From: Pseudomonadota bacterium
GTDB taxonomy: Bacteria; Pseudomonadota; Alphaproteobacteria; Rhizobiales; MH13
Length of the DNA stretch: 64,000 nt
Direction of reading: 5' to 3'
NCBI GenBank assembly: GCA_039024915.1
Contig: JBCCPK010000002.1
Span: forward strand, 310,001-374,000
Below are positions 31,256 through 54,151 of the stretch, one piece after another. How positions within the stretch are numbered: the first letter of the stretch is position 1; each line of letters starts with the position of its first letter. The position numbers were made by a program, and so were the translations under genes. The notes beneath the pieces were generated by a model. The model did not search any database and had not been told where the DNA came from. It worked only from the letters and a program-made list of their open reading frames with translations.

Positions 31256-31306
31256 AAAAATGGTAGCGGAGGAGGGACTTGAACCCCCGACACGCGGATT
31301 ATGATT
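31256..31306 (-). repeat. Distal attachment-site repeat: displaced 3' fragment of tRNA-Met
   Basis: These 51 bases are identical to 54070-54120, covering five A residues and the 46 bases of tRNA-Met from the CCA end to the anticodon loop (on the minus strand). Identity stops abruptly at 31307. The fragment lacks the D-arm and the 5' acceptor strand, so it is not a working tRNA. It marks the far end of the island. Confidence 0.92.
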
Positions 31307-31754: not shown

Positions 31755-33068
31755 TCACAGATGAATGTCGAAGAAGGCTTCTTTTGAAAAGTGCGCAGAT
31801 GCATGCGGAAACCCCTCAATTTTGTCTTCTACCAGCTTCTTAACCTTCTGCATGTGCTCACGGTCTGCCCTAAATGTGGAGCCGTCCGAAGTGAACCACA
31901 ACTTGAACGGCCTGTTGGAATCGACGTGCGGCGTTCGTATTGACGCCGGACCGACCCTCGCGTCGAGCAGTTCTCTGACCACTCTTCGGTCTGGATTGTG
32001 GTGCCCACCATTGCCACAGAACAGGTAGTGATCCGCTGTTACCTTCTGAGCAAAGCCGAGCGAGAAATTGTTCTCGCTACCATGGTGCTGCACTTTCAGC
32101 AGATCGACATGAACATGATCGTCACCGTCGGTGAAACCGGTCGCCATGAGATCTTCGTGAATGTGATCATCACGAGCATCACCTGTGAACAGAACGCGCT
32201 TACCATCCTCTTCAACAATCATCACGATCGATGAGACGTTTTGAACCGTCACGTCATCTCGGTCGCCGACTTCCGGCCCGAGCCCCGACAGCCCCAGAAG
32301 AGCGCGAACGCCCTCCCTCAAGAGCAGCTGCTCGTCGCGTTCTGCGTCGCGCCGGACGTCCCTAATCTGGTGTCTGGTATCGCTTGATGTCAGCCATTTG
32401 TTCCACTTCTCTCTCAGCTCAGTCAGCCGCTCTGTGGTCGGCCCGAGAACCGTCAGTGTCAGGTCGCCAAGCTCGATCGGCACTGACCGAGAATGACGGC
32501 GGACCAACTTACCGCCAAATTCCTCGTTCAGCGGAATATCGAGCTGTTTTGCACCGATGCGACGCGACACTTGCGCCGCCTCCTTTAGGCTATTGGCAAG
32601 CTGGCTATAAAGGTCGCGGCCGTGGCTTAGCGGACCGCCTCCACTCGCCAGAGCATTCGAGGCCGCCGAGAGAAGTGCCACTTCTAGGTCGCCCCGGTTC
32701 TGTCCGACCTGTTCTTGAAACGCGTTGTGCCAGATGCCGTCGATCTCAGGCGCTCTCAGCCCTTCTGGCTCCGCTGGGTTAAGGTTCTGTGCTACCTGGT
32801 GGTCGTGCACACGCCAGTCAAACTCGTCGTTCAACATTGCGAGAATGCCACCTATGTGATCCTGGTCCACATGGCTGACGCAAATCAGATCAAGTCTCTC
32901 ACCCTGGTCCCTCATCTTTGCGAGTTCAGGCGCAACGTTGAATTGGTAGCTCAGGACTGTCCCGAACTGCCGCTTCACAAGACCGCCGTCGACCAGAATA
33001 TTCTTGCCACTCGTGCTCGTCAGAAGCACGGAGTCGCCGGAATTGCCTTCGAATGCTCTGACCCTCAT
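31755..33068 (-). CDS. ComEC-like metallo-beta-lactamase-fold hydrolase
   Basis: The start is ATG at 33068, overlapping the protease stop codon by four bases. The longer open frame runs back through the protease gene. The 437-residue product opens with GNSGDSVLLTSTSGKNILVDGG and carries the metal site SHVDQDHIGG (H66, D68, D70, H71), a later VLFTGDAR aspartate and KVQHHGSENN histidines. This is the layout of the ComEC/Rec2-type MBL family, here without ComEC membrane domains. Such free-standing enzymes occur in defence and conflict operons and are presumed to cleave nucleic acids or nucleotides. It is the last gene of a four-gene operon and is translationally coupled to the protease. Confidence 0.85.
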   Translation of the reverse strand: MRVRAFEGNSGDSVLLTSTSGKNILVDGGLVKRQFGTVLSYQFNVAPELAKMRDQGERLDLICVSHVDQDHIGGILAMLNDEFDWRVHDHQVAQNLNPAEPEGLRAPEIDGIWHNAFQEQVGQNRGDLEVALLSAASNALASGGGPLSHGRDLYSQLANSLKEAAQVSRRIGAKQLDIPLNEEFGGKLVRRHSRSVPIELGDLTLTVLGPTTERLTELREKWNKWLTSSDTRHQIRDVRRDAERDEQLLLREGVRALLGLSGLGPEVGDRDDVTVQNVSSIVMIVEEDGKRVLFTGDARDDHIHEDLMATGFTDGDDHVHVDLLKVQHHGSENNFSLGFAQKVTADHYLFCGNGGHHNPDRRVVRELLDARVGPASIRTPHVDSNRPFKLWFTSDGSTFRADREHMQKVKKLVEDKIEGFPHASAHFSKEAFFDIHL

Positions 33069-35083
33069 GGCTCGATCTTCGTTCTTGCGTGCATACGCGC
33101 GGCTTCCTCGACGCAGGCCCGAGCGTTGAGAACGCCATAGCCGGCATCGGTCGCCCAGTCGAAGGTTGCGCCTGAGAGCGGTTGCGACGTTCTCTGGATG
33201 ATCCCATTTACTTGTGCCGAGGTTAGTCGCGGCTCGGCCTCCAGCATGAGCCCTATCACCCCAGCCACATATGGACTGGCCATACTCGTCCCGGTCATCG
33301 CGATCCACGGTTCATCGCCGTCACCGAAAAAGCCATTGGCGGCCACGATGTCCGTTCCCGGCGCTGCGACGTCCGGTTTGTGACGATTGTCGCGCGTCGG
33401 ACCTTGGCTAGAACTGATATTAATCTTGTCGTTCGCCATATCGAGGTTGGCTACAGAGATGATCCGATGCCCGCAAGCCAGCGAACTAACCGAATTCGAA
33501 TCAACATTTGACGAAGTCGCAAAGAAGGAGGGGAAATTCCAGTAATTTTGGTCGCCAACAACGCCACGTGGTCGGGGGTCATCGCGCTCTATCCAGCCGT
33601 TGTAACGACCGTCTCTGACTTCGATACCATGGAGCCGCACACGCCATTTGCCAGGCGGCACCCCGACCACGGGGTTGTCTGGCTTCAGGAACGGACTGAG
33701 ATAAATGGCAATGTAGTTTGCACCATTAGCTGGATGATAGAGCTCATTGTAGATGCTGAGCATACTGCCGCCTGGCAGCTTGTGATTCTGTACATATTCT
33801 CCCGGCCGAATTGGACCAATTGTCGCCATGCCCGGTGGCGTGACCGAGACTGCAAATCGGTCGGCTCCGCTGTACCACAATTCCAGTTCATTTTCTGAGA
33901 CATCGGCAATACCATTCCCCACCACGATCCAATCGACATCACGCGTTAACTCGCGTGCGGCGATTCGACCTGAGGTGTGGATACGACCGAGCGCAAAGCC
34001 GATGTCGCCAGGCCCAGCCGGTGCCTGCTGTCCTGCGTTACCTGCCGCGACACACACCGCGCGCCCCGGCGTCGCGAGTTCATGGTCAATCCAGCGGCTC
34101 GCGGCATTTGATGCGTCGTGTGCACCGCTGTTGGTACCTAGACTCACGTTTATCGACACCGGGCGGTTCATATCAGCTGCCAACCGGCACAAATAACTGA
34201 CGGCCTCAGCGACACGCGTCGAATCGTAGAATGAATTGCGCCGGTCCATTGCGAACTCGTCTGGCAAATCAATCAAAACGCCGGCGACCAGTGCATTTCT
34301 ACATACACCGCGGTTTCCAGCAGCGATACTGGCGACATGCGTACCATGCGACTCGGGCACCATCTGCGACTGAGGCTCCAGTGCCCAAGCTGGCAACGAC
34401 ACCTCTGAGTTTAGTGCCGCCTCCATATGTTCTTGACGGATCTCCGAGCCGTAGCCAAAGCCCGGCGGCGCTGGCCGCAAGCCGCCACGCTGATCCCAAA
34501 TCCTCACCCACCGGGTCTTGGTCCGCTGTCCGTCTGTCCGCGTGAAGTCGGGATGGGAGAAATCGAACCCGCCTACATCGATGATCCCAATAAGGACATC
34601 GCGGCCGCCGCTGTCGCGTCCTGGGATGTTTCTTCCATTCAATGACGGCGGCGAGACCGAGCCAGTTGAGACCATTGAGTCCGGGTGCTTTAGCGGCTCC
34701 CCCAATTCGATAAAGGCCACATCATCATTGTCTGCAAGATTACGCAGCTCGTTCAGCTTTATCTTCTTCGCCGCCATTCGACGTTCAGGCGCGTGTTCGC
34801 CGTCGCCGAAATAGGTAACAAACGTATTCACTTCGACGCTGTCGCTCACCTCTTTGATTTTCGGCGTCTTCAGCTTCGTCTTAGGCAACTCACCAGCAAC
34901 TCGTTGTTCGAACGGGTGGAGCCCGGCTTCCGTCTCGGCCTTTATGGTTGGCGCAACCATTGCGGCGCATTGTTCTGATCGGCGAAAATTCACATTGTCC
35001 AAGGCTTTGGCCACCATGCGCAGCTTTGGATGGATTTTGCGAAACGCGGCTCCCATAAGCCGTTCGTCACGAGTTGTTGGCAC
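33065..35083 (-). CDS. Subtilisin-like (S8) serine protease, apparently cytosolic
   Basis: The 672-residue protein has an S8 catalytic triad: D169 in GIIDVGGFDFSHPDF, H246 in ESHGTHVASIAAG and S600 in GTSMASPYVAG. The oxyanion Asn is in VAAGNAGQQAP. Residues about 80-135 (EVNTFVTYFGDGEHAPERRM onwards) look like an I9-type propeptide that would keep it inactive until triggered. There is no signal peptide or membrane segment, so it should act inside the cell. An insert of about 150 residues separates the Asn and Ser regions. It sits between an exported protein and the MBL hydrolase in one operon on the island, which points to defence rather than nutrition, by inference. Confidence 0.88.
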   Translation of the reverse strand: MPTTRDERLMGAAFRKIHPKLRMVAKALDNVNFRRSEQCAAMVAPTIKAETEAGLHPFEQRVAGELPKTKLKTPKIKEVSDSVEVNTFVTYFGDGEHAPERRMAAKKIKLNELRNLADNDDVAFIELGEPLKHPDSMVSTGSVSPPSLNGRNIPGRDSGGRDVLIGIIDVGGFDFSHPDFTRTDGQRTKTRWVRIWDQRGGLRPAPPGFGYGSEIRQEHMEAALNSEVSLPAWALEPQSQMVPESHGTHVASIAAGNRGVCRNALVAGVLIDLPDEFAMDRRNSFYDSTRVAEAVSYLCRLAADMNRPVSINVSLGTNSGAHDASNAASRWIDHELATPGRAVCVAAGNAGQQAPAGPGDIGFALGRIHTSGRIAARELTRDVDWIVVGNGIADVSENELELWYSGADRFAVSVTPPGMATIGPIRPGEYVQNHKLPGGSMLSIYNELYHPANGANYIAIYLSPFLKPDNPVVGVPPGKWRVRLHGIEVRDGRYNGWIERDDPRPRGVVGDQNYWNFPSFFATSSNVDSNSVSSLACGHRIISVANLDMANDKINISSSQGPTRDNRHKPDVAAPGTDIVAANGFFGDGDEPWIAMTGTSMASPYVAGVIGLMLEAEPRLTSAQVNGIIQRTSQPLSGATFDWATDAGYGVLNARACVEEAARMHARTKIEP

Positions 35084-37677: not shown

Positions 37678-38019
37678 GGCCGGTCATGCAATAACAATCA
37701 ACTCGCACCACTCGGTGGGGGCATGCCAATCTTCAGCGCGCCGCAATTTTCCAGTTCGAGCCCAAAGCTGTACCGCATCAATCCATCTCGTAATTCGGTA
37801 AGTGCAATCACCGCGAACGCCTATCCTGCAGCTTGGAATCGTAAACTAGGAACGGTAATTATAATTTAGCCGTATAGCGCTGCCCAGAATTGTGGGTGTT
37901 CCGACGAAATACAATGTATGTAAATTCACGATAACGCCATACACTATGTAGACTCACTGCCCTATGATTTCGCACTTTTTTATTTTGACATTTAGGAACA
38001 ATTCCTTGCTATTAAGCTA
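37678..38019. other. AT-rich intergenic region upstream of the phosphatase/SIR2/kinase operon
   Basis: These 342 bases carry no coding frame I can support. Composition drops to AT-rich from about 37.8 kb. It must hold the promoter of the PP2C-SIR2-kinase operon. I see no clear repeat or RNA structure. Confidence 0.5.
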
Positions 38020-38712
38020 GTGACTGTCGAATTTTTTTCAGAATGTGGGCGACATAGGGCAGCGAACCAGGACGCCATCGCTACTTGGTCCTCAAGTGAG
38101 AACCTCCGCGATGGATTTGTCGCTGTTATCGCCGATGGCGTGGGGTCAATGCTTTTGGGGCATGAAGCCGCAAGCTTAGCTGTCGAGACCTCTCTCGCTT
38201 TTCTAAAGTCAAATATGAAAGTTTTCCGGAATCCAAGCGAAGTCTCATCCGCAATCTGTCGCGCACTCGGCGCCTCAAACCAAGCCATCAAAGAACTCTC
38301 GTTGGAACGCGTTGGTGATCCTTATAAATCCGGCGCATGTGCACTGTGTATGGTGTGCCATGGACAAGAAATTACTATCGGTGGAGTGGGAGATTGCGCT
38401 GCATTTAAGGTGGGCGAGGATGGTGTTTCTGATTATTTTGTCGCCGAGCCATCAGCAGGCGGGTCGCTTGTCACCAATACTCTTGGAGCGAAAGGCGATC
38501 AATTCCCACGGTTAGTTCAATGGACTGTGCCACATAAAACCCGGATCGGAATTGCGACAGATGGCTTTCTCGACTATTTCCCCAAGGCGAAATTACTTGA
38601 TAATATTGGGAATTGGGCCAATGACATCACAAGCGTCACAAAATCTATCCGAAGAGAAACACTGCTTGCAGATCCGCACGATAATTTCACAATGATGATC
38701 GCGGAGTACTAG
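38020..38712 (+). CDS. PP2C-family Ser/Thr protein phosphatase
   Basis: The 230-residue protein is a minimal PP2C domain with all metal-binding positions present: NQD (D18), IADGVGS (D39-G40), GVGDCAAF (G124-D125), ATDGFLDYF (D181-G182) and DPHDNFTMM (D221-N222). The start is a GTG at 38020. The ribosome site is poor, so the true start could differ slightly. It removes phosphate from Ser/Thr and is the natural antagonist of the kinase two genes downstream. The stop codon directly abuts the ATG of the SIR2 gene, so the three genes form one operon. Confidence 0.88.
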   Translation: MTVEFFSECGRHRAANQDAIATWSSSENLRDGFVAVIADGVGSMLLGHEAASLAVETSLAFLKSNMKVFRNPSEVSSAICRALGASNQAIKELSLERVGDPYKSGACALCMVCHGQEITIGGVGDCAAFKVGEDGVSDYFVAEPSAGGSLVTNTLGAKGDQFPRLVQWTVPHKTRIGIATDGFLDYFPKAKLLDNIGNWANDITSVTKSIRRETLLADPHDNFTMMIAEY

Positions 38713-39576
38713 ATGCGATATCCATCTCGCTTAGTGGAAGCAACGTCACTAAAGAAAATGGTCCCATTCATAGGAGCGGGTGTATCAAAATTCGCAGCCC
38801 CTAACCTCTTCCCCACGTGGGCAGAATTCATATCAAATTTCCTTGCGAAAGCAAAAGCTGATGGGCACCTACCGGATCATGATTTCAGGGACCTGAGCCG
38901 GCTCGCTGCCGCTGGAAAAAGCCTTACAGTTGCGGAGCACCTAAAGGAAGTGCTCCCCAGCGACTACTACATAGATGTACTCATCGAGACATTCGACATC
39001 ATACTCGATGAAGAAGCAGATCTCTCCATCTATGAAATTTTATTCGAAATGAATCCCCCAATAATGATCACAACTAACTATGATCGATTGATAGAGGACT
39101 CATATGCGCGTCTTAAAAGAAGAAACATGGACGTTAAGACCCATCAGGAATCTGTGGGTGTAATAAAAGCACTTCAGCGAACACGTAATAATGGTTATCA
39201 AACACTATTTAAAATTCACGGGGACGTAAGAACGCCCTCCAACGTAGTTCTCTCGGAGAAGGACTATCGAAATGTAATGTACGATTTGTCCGATTACCGA
39301 ATGGCAATGGATTCGATATTCTCACTTTATACTGTGTTATTTATTGGGTTTTCGATGGGAGACAAAGAGATGATTTCAACCATCGAAAATCTTCGACACA
39401 CATTCCGTTATCTAGAAAGTCCACACTATATTCTACTTAGAGAAGGTGAAACGAGCCACGTAGAACGTCGCCGTTGGAGGGAAGATTTTGGACTCGAGGT
39501 AATTGAGTATACTCGAGGCGATGACCATCGCGGACTATTGCACTGGTTTAGAGACTTTTCGGCAGAATCCGGTTAA
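38713..39576 (+). CDS. SIR2-like (SIR2_2) NAD-processing domain protein
   Basis: The 287-residue protein has the SIR2 Rossmann signature FIGAGVS at 19-25, TTNYD at 120-124, the catalytic-type histidine in KIHGD at 167-171 (H169), SEKDY at 181-185 and IGFSMGD at 211-217. There is no zinc-binding cysteine module, so it belongs with the SIR2-like NADases of bacterial immunity (Thoeris ThsA, DSR, SIR2-HerA) rather than with deacetylase sirtuins. The likely activity is NAD+ hydrolysis that stops the infected cell. It has no extra sensor domain, which suggests control by its neighbours: the phosphatase ends at its ATG and the kinase starts four bases after its stop. Confidence 0.88.
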   Translation: MRYPSRLVEATSLKKMVPFIGAGVSKFAAPNLFPTWAEFISNFLAKAKADGHLPDHDFRDLSRLAAAGKSLTVAEHLKEVLPSDYYIDVLIETFDIILDEEADLSIYEILFEMNPPIMITTNYDRLIEDSYARLKRRNMDVKTHQESVGVIKALQRTRNNGYQTLFKIHGDVRTPSNVVLSEKDYRNVMYDLSDYRMAMDSIFSLYTVLFIGFSMGDKEMISTIENLRHTFRYLESPHYILLREGETSHVERRRWREDFGLEVIEYTRGDDHRGLLHWFRDFSAESG

Positions 39577-39580
39577 AAAT

Positions 39581-41407
39581 ATGCCTTCGTCACTTTTTAA
39601 AAAGCATGACTTCATTGATGTCGTGCAATGCCAGCTTATTGACTACATCAGTGCAGGTACCCAGGCTGAAGTATGGAAAGCTTCGACCCCGCTCAAGACC
39701 GAAGATGGCATCTTTGCTGTGAGGATAAACTATATCGCATCAGGTGAGAAGGGAACAGCGAACTGGATAGAGTGGAAGGGTCGCTTAGAAAAGGAGACCG
39801 CAATCTGGAGAGAGTTTGAGGCAAATCCTTTTGTCGTGAACCTTCGTGATTCTAGTTTCGTGCCATCACACGAGACAGAGCATGGCAAGTTTGATTTGTT
39901 CATTCAATCAATGGAATATCTTCCGTACGGAAGTTTAGATGAGTACCTAACAACAGAGCAACGAAAACACCTGTTTGAGCTCATTGGCCAAGACCAAAAG
40001 ATTCCCGCATTCCTTCGACTACTAGTGTCTGCTGTAAAAGAAGGACACGAGGCGGGCAGAATTCACGGCGACATCAAGCCATCAAACATTCTGCTAAATG
40101 TCTCTGCAGGCAACTACCCGTCTCCAAAACTCATGGATTTTGGACTTTCGATGGACGCCAGCCTCGGTTTTTCTGGCGGATTTATTGGCACACCCGAATA
40201 TTCACCAATCGCTTTTCTAACTGGTGATATTGGTGCGACGACAAAAACAGATATTTATGCACTCGGCGCAGTATTTTATGAGTTCCTCACCGGGAAAAAA
40301 TTCGTAGAGGGCACTGATAACCTAAAGCCAGATGAGCGTAAGAACGCAGTAGTTGGTGCATTGCGAGCGCGACGCGAATTCGACATCTCAGAGATCGATC
40401 AAGATGTGACGCTGTCTCAAAGACGTCGCGATCAGTTGGTCACGCTGACAAATCTGATGCTCGAAAGTACTTCACCTAAAGGTGATGGTTCCATGACTTT
40501 AGCGTTTGTCGTGCAAAACTTGGCCCATTGTGAGACTCAAGACACGCAGGAACCTAAAAACACGGTCCGACCACGAACGTATCGTTGGGCCAAATCTGTA
40601 CACGAGGCCTTAGATGAGACGCCAGTGTATTTTGTTGTAAAATCTGAACAACCATATGATGATGAAGAAGTAATCAGAAAAAACCTAGCTATGTCGGGCA
40701 TTAGAGGTTACTCTCTATACCGACTTGTGGGAACGCATGACTTTATGCTTCGCATTTGGCGCTCTAATCGAAATGAACGATTAATTGATCGCGCAATTGA
40801 TAAGTATATACATCCAAATAGATTCTCCGCCAGAGTATCCAAAATTGATATTCGAAAGTATGTAACATTTAGTGACAAAAAAACGGAATTTGCAAAAACT
40901 AAACAGCAAGTTCTCTTAGAGGTTGCTCAATCTAGAGATCGTGATAGCCAGGTTGAGTTCTCTCGGCTGAAACGGTTGGGACTGGTCAACTCGCGGATTG
41001 CCGACGATCGTAGCGGGAAAACCGCGATCCGCGTATTCCTATTTGTTCTCACAAACCGCGAAAACTTATCAGACGAAGCCTGGGATACATTCCACGAAAA
41101 GTGCGATCATATAGTCAAAGGTCATGCAAGTCTAAGGGATAGCGCGATTAAGAATGTAAGCAGCTATCAGTGTAAAGTAACTGACTTAGGTGACCAAGAC
41201 ACGCAAATCGGAGTCATGTATCGGATGATTGTCAATGATTATCATAGATACACAGATCTTCTAAAAAAGATATCAGATGGGAAGCACATTCTTGAACAGC
41301 ACGCAAAACGCCAAATTCTAACTACTTCTTTATTCGAATTGGACAAAAAGGGGATGATAGAATCTGATGACGGTGAAATTTTGTTCCAAGCAGAACAATT
41401 TGGTTAA
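39581..41407 (+). CDS. Ser/Thr protein kinase with large C-terminal sensor-like region
   Basis: The start is ATG at 39581, four bases after the SIR2 stop. The open frame extends upstream into the SIR2 gene but is not needed. The 608-residue protein has a Hanks-type kinase domain at about 20-330: degenerate glycine loop ISAGTQAEVWK, catalytic loop IHGDIKPSNILL (D164, K166, N169), DFG at 186-188, GTPEYSPIAFL and TKTDIYALGAVFYEFLTGK. The position of the usual VAIK lysine reads Arg (FAVRIN). Residues about 360-600 contain two alpha/beta stretches (FVVKSEQ to GTHDFMLRIW, and FVLTNREN to GVMYRMIVNDYH) that look like Lrp/RAM-type ligand folds. There is no membrane segment. It probably phosphorylates the SIR2 protein or itself. 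Confidence 0.85.
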   Translation: MPSSLFKKHDFIDVVQCQLIDYISAGTQAEVWKASTPLKTEDGIFAVRINYIASGEKGTANWIEWKGRLEKETAIWREFEANPFVVNLRDSSFVPSHETEHGKFDLFIQSMEYLPYGSLDEYLTTEQRKHLFELIGQDQKIPAFLRLLVSAVKEGHEAGRIHGDIKPSNILLNVSAGNYPSPKLMDFGLSMDASLGFSGGFIGTPEYSPIAFLTGDIGATTKTDIYALGAVFYEFLTGKKFVEGTDNLKPDERKNAVVGALRARREFDISEIDQDVTLSQRRRDQLVTLTNLMLESTSPKGDGSMTLAFVVQNLAHCETQDTQEPKNTVRPRTYRWAKSVHEALDETPVYFVVKSEQPYDDEEVIRKNLAMSGIRGYSLYRLVGTHDFMLRIWRSNRNERLIDRAIDKYIHPNRFSARVSKIDIRKYVTFSDKKTEFAKTKQQVLLEVAQSRDRDSQVEFSRLKRLGLVNSRIADDRSGKTAIRVFLFVLTNRENLSDEAWDTFHEKCDHIVKGHASLRDSAIKNVSSYQCKVTDLGDQDTQIGVMYRMIVNDYHRYTDLLKKISDGKHILEQHAKRQILTTSLFELDKKGMIESDDGEILFQAEQFG

Positions 41408-41778
41408 GCGCTTTCGGCTAGTTCATTAACCACAACTATTCTGCGCTTTACTTTATCAGGCCTTACGTCATCGCCAGATAATTCTTGAAGGTCCTCTCCA
41501 AGCCAAGCAACTCTCCAGTCAAAATAGATATTATCTATGCAAGATTGACCTTTAGCTTGTCCTGACGACCTTATTTCTTGAACTATGCGATCACGTACAC
41601 CTTCGTCAACGGCATACAACGATACTGGATATTCAACAGAAACCGGAGTCATTTCCAAGTTTTTGATAAACCGTAGATCGGGAGAAGCCATAGGAAACCG
41701 CCATTTTTCAAAATTATAACATGCTTGCTTCAATGGGTCAATTTTGTTTGTTATCAATAAGTTAAACGACGATTTCAA
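41404..41778 (-). CDS. Hypothetical protein (124 aa) convergent with the kinase
   Basis: This AT-rich frame of natural composition ends four bases inside the end of the kinase gene on the opposite strand. The product (RFIKNLEMTPVSVEYPVSLYAVDEG, CIDNIYFDWRVAWLGEDLQELSGDDV) has no family I recognise. Shared base composition and tight packing suggest it arrived with the phosphatase/SIR2/kinase genes. An ATG at 41691 (MASPDLRF) is an alternative start. Confidence 0.55.
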   Translation of the reverse strand: MKSSFNLLITNKIDPLKQACYNFEKWRFPMASPDLRFIKNLEMTPVSVEYPVSLYAVDEGVRDRIVQEIRSSGQAKGQSCIDNIYFDWRVAWLGEDLQELSGDDVRPDKVKRRIVVVNELAESA

Positions 41779-42174
41779 ATCTAAATGCGCATAGCTATTT
41801 TACTCCAAACTGCTTGTACTTTAAATTTCAGAATAACTACAACATATCTACCCTTAATATTCTGTTAATATCCCCACTGGATCGAGTATAAGATCCTATT
41901 AAACACAATAAGTTCGCGTTTATATTGATGAGTGCGCCGATCTTCGGTCATCGTCACATGGGTAACACAGAATTGCTAGACCCCAGCGCTGTGAGGTTTG
42001 ACTTGAAAGCCGACGTCGGCCTTCGATAGGCGAATACTTCAAACGTGTTTCCGGCTTGTGAATGAGTTGCTGTAGAGGTCGGCCTCTTTTTCGGGCCTTC
42101 ATAAGTGCCGCCATTGTCATCGTGCCCCAAACCATACCCTGACACGCGGATGTTTGGTGTCTTACGGTGTGGGC
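41779..42174. other. Intergenic region before the integrase, with an 11-bp tRNA-like match
   Basis: This is a 396-base gap that changes from AT-rich to GC-rich near 41.95 kb. GACACGCGGAT at 42141-42151 matches part of the tRNA-Met repeat and lies 24 bases before the integrase start. It may be a degenerate internal attachment site or chance. Confidence 0.4.
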
Positions 42175-43404
42175 ATGAAACGCAAGCTCACCACCAAGCT
42201 GATCGAAAGCCTGCCACCAGCGACGGGCAAGCGCTACGAGGCTCGCGATACCCTGATCCCCGGCCTGCACCTGCGTGTGTCAGCCACAGGTGGGAAGGTC
42301 TGGAATCTCTCTACGCGTGTTGATCGTCGCAACCGGCGCATCAAGCTTGGCAGCTACCCGGCCCTTTCGCTCTCAGACGCGCGTGAGCGTGCTCGGGACG
42401 TTTTGCGCGACATCGACATCGGTACGTTCGAAAAAAGCGATGCTGGCTCACCTGAGGCTCCGGTACCTACCCTTGGCGAGGTCATCCCTCAATTCATCGA
42501 ACTGCACGCGAAGCCGCGCAATCGCGATTGGAAGGGCACCGAGAGCATCCTAACCAAGTTCGCAGCAATGAACTCAACGCCCATGGATCAGATCAAGCGC
42601 GCCGACGTTCACCGCGTGCTCGATACGATCATTGCTGATGGCGCACCGACACGGGCGAACCGGGCGCTGGCTGCGATCAAGAAGCTCATGAACTGGTGCA
42701 TCGATCGCGGCATCATCGAAACATCACCTGTGGCTGCTCTGAAGCCTCCCACAAAGGAGGTCGCCCGCGAGCGTGTGCTGACGGACACCGAACTAGCGGC
42801 GTGTTTGAATGCTGCGACCGACGAAGGCTTTCCGTTCGAGGCGTTCCTTCAGCTGCTCATCCTGACCGGCCAACGCCGTGGCGAGGTCGCAGGCATGCGA
42901 TGGGCCGAGCTTGATCTCGACAAAGGCCTTTGGACGCTTCCAGCCAAGCGCACCAAGAACGCCTCCTCGCACATCGTGCCCTTGGCACCCTTGGCGATCG
43001 ACATCCTCAAGTCTGTGCCTCGGTTTCTGGACAGCGATCTTGTCTTTACAACCAACGGCAAAACGCCGATTTCGGGCTTCGGTCGATTGAAGGAGCGCCT
43101 TGATCTGGCTGTTGGCTTGGACGCCGAGGATTGGCGCTTCCACGATCTGCGCCGAACCATGGCAACCAACATGGCTATGATGCGCGTTCAGCCGCACATT
43201 ATCGAAGCTATCCTCAACCATAAGACGGGGATCGTCTCCGGCGTCGCCGCCGTCTACAATCGTCATGCCTATCTGGATGAAAAACGCGAGGCGCTGGAGT
43301 TGTGGGCCGAAAGGGTTGGAACTCTAACCACTGCGGGATTGAGTCATGGGAACGCGACTGACGACCCGACAGCTTCGAAGAGTTTCAGCATCGCTGTCGC
43401 CTAA
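42175..43404 (+). CDS. Tyrosine integrase, P4-type
   Basis: The 409-residue protein from the ATG at 42175 (an upstream TTG and GTG are in frame) has the DUF4102 N-terminal domain of P4-like integrases (LHLRVSATGGKVWNLSTRVDRRNRRIKLGSYPALSLSDARERA). It also has an SAM-like core-binding domain and the catalytic residues: first Arg in LTGQRRGEVAG, HDLRRT near 323-328, LNHKTG near 345, and the tyrosine nucleophile in YNRHAYLDEKREALELW. It is the expected enzyme for integration into the tRNA-Met 3' end, although it lies in the middle of the island. Confidence 0.93.
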   Translation: MKRKLTTKLIESLPPATGKRYEARDTLIPGLHLRVSATGGKVWNLSTRVDRRNRRIKLGSYPALSLSDARERARDVLRDIDIGTFEKSDAGSPEAPVPTLGEVIPQFIELHAKPRNRDWKGTESILTKFAAMNSTPMDQIKRADVHRVLDTIIADGAPTRANRALAAIKKLMNWCIDRGIIETSPVAALKPPTKEVARERVLTDTELAACLNAATDEGFPFEAFLQLLILTGQRRGEVAGMRWAELDLDKGLWTLPAKRTKNASSHIVPLAPLAIDILKSVPRFLDSDLVFTTNGKTPISGFGRLKERLDLAVGLDAEDWRFHDLRRTMATNMAMMRVQPHIIEAILNHKTGIVSGVAAVYNRHAYLDEKREALELWAERVGTLTTAGLSHGNATDDPTASKSFSIAVA

Positions 43405-54069: not shown

Positions 54070-54120
54070 AAAAATGGTAGCGGAGGAGGGACTTGAACCC
54101 CCGACACGCGGATTATGATT
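54070..54120 (-). repeat. Proximal attachment-site repeat within tRNA-Met
   Basis: This is the right copy of the 51-bp direct repeat (other copy 31256-31306). It covers the 3' part of the intact tRNA-Met gene and five A residues beyond the CCA end. Confidence 0.92.
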
Positions 54121-54151
54121 CCGCTGCTCTAACCTGCTGAGCTACTCCGCC
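54075..54151 (-). tRNA. tRNA-Met (CAT anticodon, elongator type)
   Basis: The 77-base cloverleaf on the minus strand has acceptor GGCGGAG/CTCCGCT, D-arm GCTCAG...GAGC, anticodon stem GCGGA/TCCGC around loop ATCATAA (anticodon CAT), T-loop GGTTCAAGTCC and an encoded CCA. The acceptor with a G-U first pair indicates an elongator rather than an initiator tRNA. A CAT-anticodon tRNA-Ile cannot be wholly excluded. Its 3' part is the island attachment site. Confidence 0.93.

Follow-up and report, generated by a model that had tools for sequence, protein, structure and literature searches.

A PP2C phosphatase, a stand-alone SIR2 protein and a kinase-like protein encoded together on a tRNA-Met island: an unusual combination found once

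In the 64,000-nucleotide stretch of alphaproteobacterial DNA analysed here (the window), a PP2C-type phosphatase, a SIR2-like protein and a Hanks-type kinase-like protein are encoded by three adjacent genes. SIR2 NADases are common immune effectors, and they are known to be triggered by signal nucleotides, by direct binding of phage proteins or by guide-loaded Argonaute (PMC12948488, PMC10952713 and partly general knowledge). Phosphorylation gating does not figure among the known inputs to SIR2 effectors. If it is true here, reversible protein phosphorylation would join the known triggers. The question is whether the trio represents a new defence system. Gene content, order, spacing, base composition, active-site residues and island setting are established directly from the DNA, and the trio is a real, unusual combination with n = 1. 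It is regarded as a variant of SIR2-NADase defence, and not as an established new system.

The three genes are located on one strand in the order phosphatase, SIR2 and kinase (Table 1). The SIR2 start codon directly follows the phosphatase stop codon (gap of 0 bp), and the second gap is 4 bp. The earlier note on this DNA described three genes packed in this way in an AT-rich block on a tRNA-integrated island. The ORF coordinates confirm the two gaps, and the block and the island were also found as described. The third-position GC content (GC3) of the trio is 0.42–0.46, against 0.54–0.71 in the other island genes measured; the range is 0.33–0.46 when the convergent small ORF is included. An IS3 element borders the AT-rich block on the left side. 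The same note placed the locus start at 37678, whereas the phosphatase coding region begins at the GTG codon 38020. The region 37678–38019 is IS3 edge and intergenic sequence, has in-frame stops and is noncoding in the phosphatase frame. The AT-rich block (the trio and the small ORF) is probably a recent acquisition within the island. The tight gaps, the position of SIR2 between the phosphatase and the kinase, and the common low GC3 fit a unit that moved together, and the three genes may be co-transcribed.

Table 1. Coordinates of the features discussed. Positions are those of the window, except in the last row, which gives separate loci
Feature	Position	Strand	Evidence or remark
Island end, 51-bp exact repeat of the 3' half of tRNA-Met	31256..31306		blastn within the window
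PP2C-type Ser/Thr phosphatase, 230 aa, GTG start	38020..38712	+	PF13672 (PP2C_2) 6.8e-17; D18, D39, D181, D221
Stand-alone SIR2_2 protein, predicted NADase effector, 287 aa	38713..39576	+	PF13289 3e-27; N122, D124, H169
Hanks-type kinase with C-terminal tail, 608 aa	39581..41407	+	PF00069 1.7e-19; homologue in a Hyphomicrobiales MAG, collinear over the full length
Codon AGG, Arg48 at the kinase VAIK lysine position	39722..39724	+	Alignment, three other kinases with Lys
Kinase tail, two predicted beta-alpha-beta-beta-alpha-beta (ferredoxin-like) units	40619..41341	+	AlphaFold2, pLDDT 48.6
Convergent small ORF, 124 aa, or 95 aa from ATG 41691	41404..41778	-	Same AT-rich block
Island tyrosine integrase	42154..43404	+	PF00589 4.7e-19, PF13356 2.2e-13
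tRNA-Met, other island end	54075..54151	-	ARAGORN, blastn
Bacteroidota PAPS-reductase/DUF262/SIR2 clusters	L031:4474-9947, L032:4463-10062, L004:590-9290		DUF4007 also in L004

The island is an element of about 22.9 kb (31256–54151) between the tRNA-Met and its 51-bp copy. The integrase is located in the middle, about 11 kb from either island end and not beside the tRNA. The other cargo consists of an AlpA-like protein, a primase-polymerase/AAA protein, HsdM-like and HsdS-like proteins, an MBL-fold protein (LmuA/Avs1a-like) and a subtilase. Defence-like cargo is present at both ends of the island. The MBL-fold protein adjoins the subtilase (31755–35083, minus strand), and the two are a possible second defence unit. 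In a genome of the same genus (G405), the tRNA half recurs at three sites, which may reflect islands arranged in tandem. One sister island there, at the same tRNA, has an integrase 74% identical to that of the window near a 1,780-aa SIR2_2 protein, and the sister islands carry differing cargo. In the 1,780-aa protein (L044:4994-10336), the SIR2_2 domain lies near residues 302–379, and a possible GNAT-toxin/antitoxin pair was seen downstream by eye. The convergent small ORF beside the kinase gave no family match, no plasmid match and no relatives in the searches. A good sigma-70-like match (TTGACC-17-TATAAT) is located just upstream of its inner ATG. Whether this ORF is part of the module is uncertain.

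The phosphatase scores 62.1 bits against the PP2C family cut-off of 24, and the four acids of its metal site are located. The SIR2 protein scores 95.9 bits against the SIR2_2 cut-off of 24.5, and the catalytic Asn122 and His169 are present together with Asp124. Judged from these residues, both proteins look complete, and the intact active sites of PP2C and of the stand-alone, predicted SIR2-like NADase in the prior description are upheld. The sequence relatives of the SIR2 protein with solved structures are FAM118B, ThsA, DSR2 and KomC. The best match in this set is human FAM118B (E 1.6e-12), above ThsA and DSR2. The closest relatives (29–30% identity over the full length) are members of PAPS-reductase/DUF262/SIR2 clusters. 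According to the SIR2 tree, SIR2s that occur with DUF262, ParA-like or TIR genes form one group per partner type, and the window SIR2 stands alone on a long branch outside any supported group. It is thus not assigned to a clade by partner. At other loci, stand-alone SIR2s of this size lie close behind a partner gene, which is DUF262 (near PAPS-reductase genes) or ParA-like, and further SIR2s belong to Thoeris-like SIR2 and TIR sets. As each partner type has its own SIR2 group, an effector with a partner appears to be a usual arrangement.

The kinase matches the protein kinase family with 70.7 bits, and a tail of 278 residues (331–608) follows the kinase domain. These two parts of the earlier reading, a Hanks-type kinase with a C-terminal tail, stand. 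In a MAFFT alignment, the VAIK lysine present in three other kinases is replaced by Arg48. The alphaC Glu72, the HxD Asp164, Asn169 and the DFG Asp186 are retained. The window kinase is thus not catalytically complete by motif and may not be active, and the proposal in which sensing by an active kinase comes first is weakened. No Pfam family matched the tail. AlphaFold2, run with two sequences and read for secondary structure at its low confidence, predicted ferredoxin-like units at residues 347–425 and 483–587 joined by a helical linker. The full-length kinase model (pLDDT 33) was set aside. A Foldseek search with the tail model returned many ferredoxin-fold repeats with marginal scores, including the double-ACT-type protein 1u8s. 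The model gives a hint that the tail is a tandem ferredoxin-like region of the ligand-binding type.

PADLOC-DB and NCBIfam gave matches to SIR2, PP2C and kinase models of a generic kind only, none near an equivalog cut-off, and the literature searched held no system of SIR2, PP2C and kinase. Within these sources, the statement that no named system has the make-up of the trio is correct. Several described systems share one part of it. In Kongming (KomA-KomB-KomC), KomC is a 264-aa stand-alone SIR2 NADase run by a separate partner, and it matches the window SIR2 in sequence. KomC is activated through KomB by dITP, a nucleotide made with KomA (PMC12948488), whereas the window SIR2 has PP2C and kinase neighbours in place of KomA and KomB. 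In Thoeris, the SIR2 NADase domain of ThsA is related in sequence to the window SIR2. ThsA is a SIR2-SLOG protein next to the TIR protein ThsB, whereas the 287-aa window protein is SIR2 only, with no SLOG extension, and the neighbouring proteins gave no TIR match. SIR2s of the ThsA type also form a separate tree group. The nearest SIR2s are those of the DUF262–SIR2 pairs beside DUF4007/PAPS-reductase genes, but their partners are DUF262 and the PAPS-reductase set, none of which is found at the locus of the trio. DSR1/DSR2, SIR2-HerA and SPARSA are likewise SIR2 NADase effectors, of abortive infection. To our knowledge, none of them has a kinase or a PP2C. Their SIR2 is fused to or paired with other domains (PMC10952713 and partly general knowledge). 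A set of PP2C, kinase and VWA proteins accompanies GAP1-N2 GTPases, and SIR2 is absent from its description (PMC7159879).

A recurrent defence system should show the same trio in several unrelated genomes. For the candidate system of the earlier note, recurrence of the triad was not borne out by the neighbourhood search, since no second trio was found in any genome, plasmid, phage or viral-contig set searched. Genome samples were taken from the same class, order and phylum (1,983 genome look-ups in total). They cover a small fraction of the genomes known, the motif scan applies strict patterns, and the searches may have passed over a diverged trio. Among 385 same-class genomes, the SIR2 protein matched its own genome and, weakly, two longer proteins only. 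Among 150 same-order genomes, the kinase had one further full-length match, in the Hyphomicrobiales MAG BM303 (G398). The kinase-tail profile found none beyond BM303 in 399 same-phylum and 398 same-order genomes, and the phosphatase matched its own genome only among the family's five genomes. Pfam SIR2_2 was positive in 106 of 298 order genomes and 99 of 339 phylum genomes. At 91 distinct other SIR2_2 loci (51 read with flanks of about 1.5 kb and 60 up to 8.5 kb, 40 of the latter additional), no kinase or PP2C motif was detected nearby; the motif script recovers the window trio and the BM303 kinase–PP2C pair as the positive control. No plasmid record covered 80% of the kinase, and no plasmid matched the phosphatase. 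The plasmid kinases H2, H3, H7 and H24 were rejected as relatives; they are unrelated Hanks kinases that match in the catalytic core only. In phages, the kinase matched in its core alone and the SIR2 matches were partial, and exact 8-mer scans of viral contigs with SIR2 or kinase alone gave no relative. A two-motif scan of 84,980 species gave four true relatives, three SIR2 loci and the BM303 kinase, and no trio. The two-motif pattern was chosen from alignments with artificial rows, which kept the two motifs and were used for this choice alone, and tblastn against the actual window sequence confirmed its matches. Two of the three SIR2 loci were read and are of the DUF262 type, and the Sinorhizobium locus is of this type according to a plasmid relative. 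An alignment scan with real SIR2 rows gave only distant SIR2s among the matches listed.

The BM303 kinase is collinear with the window kinase over the entire length including the tail (26% identity), and a PP2C gene adjoins it (L034/L012). The two PP2Cs are remotely alike (BLASTP E 1e-4). Unlike the window trio, the BM303 pair has no SIR2 within 12 kb, its gene order is reversed, the VAIK lysine is intact, and its chromosomal neighbours are not defence-like, whereas the trio is located on a defence-rich island.

According to these results, we tentatively propose, as a reading that falls somewhat short of probable, that the trio was acquired horizontally as a defence-island module, that its kinase tail and PP2C form a control unit gating an NADase effector, and that the module is probably anti-phage. 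The stand-alone SIR2 would be the effector and would hydrolyse NAD+ once released or assembled. The kinase-like protein would act as a sensor or gate through its two predicted ferredoxin-like domains, and PP2C would be the opposing or resetting enzyme. On infection, SIR2 or a shared complex would change state, with depletion of NAD+ as the result (abortive infection). The effector role is suggested by the Asn/His pair of SIR2 and by its matches to the solved NADases ThsA, DSR2 and KomC, and the control unit by the pairing of the same kinase architecture with a PP2C in BM303. The defence role is suggested by the HsdM/HsdS-like, MBL and subtilase genes of the island and by the giant SIR2_2 protein of the sister island, and the action as one unit by the contiguous genes with matched low GC3. 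The lack of a second trio, Arg48, the distant PP2Cs and the low-confidence tail models count against the proposal. Its narrower form, a phosphorylation-gated NADase immune unit in which the kinase with tandem ferredoxin-like sensors and PP2C set SIR2 activity, is considered unlikely.

Arg48 makes a pseudokinase version of the module a serious rival, although it is still on the unlikely side. The kinase-like protein would then bind and restrain SIR2 as a sensor or scaffold, and PP2C would act on another phosphoprotein of the host or phage. As the BM303 homologue keeps the lysine, the change to Arg48 probably arose on the window lineage, in line with this version. However, the retention of Glu72, Asp164, Asn169 and Asp186 is unusual for an old pseudokinase, and AGG is one base from AAG, so that a recent origin of Arg48 or some remaining enzyme activity is possible. 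A kinase/PP2C regulator and a SIR2 effector may instead have been brought together by cargo turnover at a site flanked by IS3, with no mechanism in common. The single occurrence of the trio, the separate occurrence of its two halves elsewhere, the abutting IS3 element and the differing cargo of the sister islands favour such an accidental or short-lived assembly. It does not readily account for the low GC3 common to the three genes or for the place of SIR2 between the other two, at 0 and 4 bp from them, and we judge it improbable. The TerY-P triad consists of TerY, an STY kinase and a PP2C, and SIR2 is absent from its description (PMC4978471). It shares with the window a kinase and PP2C pair in a defence-like cluster. 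A TerY-P-like phosphorylation triad in which SIR2 replaces the VWA protein would explain why both components are present, but no VWA match was found among the proteins scanned in 36.5–46.9 kb, and this explanation is very improbable.

The window locus also illustrates that stand-alone SIR2s recur with varied partner genes (DUF262, ParA-like and TIR). A cluster of PAPS-reductase, DUF262 and SIR2 genes recurs in Bacteroidota together with a large convergent gene that looks GHKL-ATPase-like by eye, and it is possibly a phosphorothioation-linked SIR2 system.
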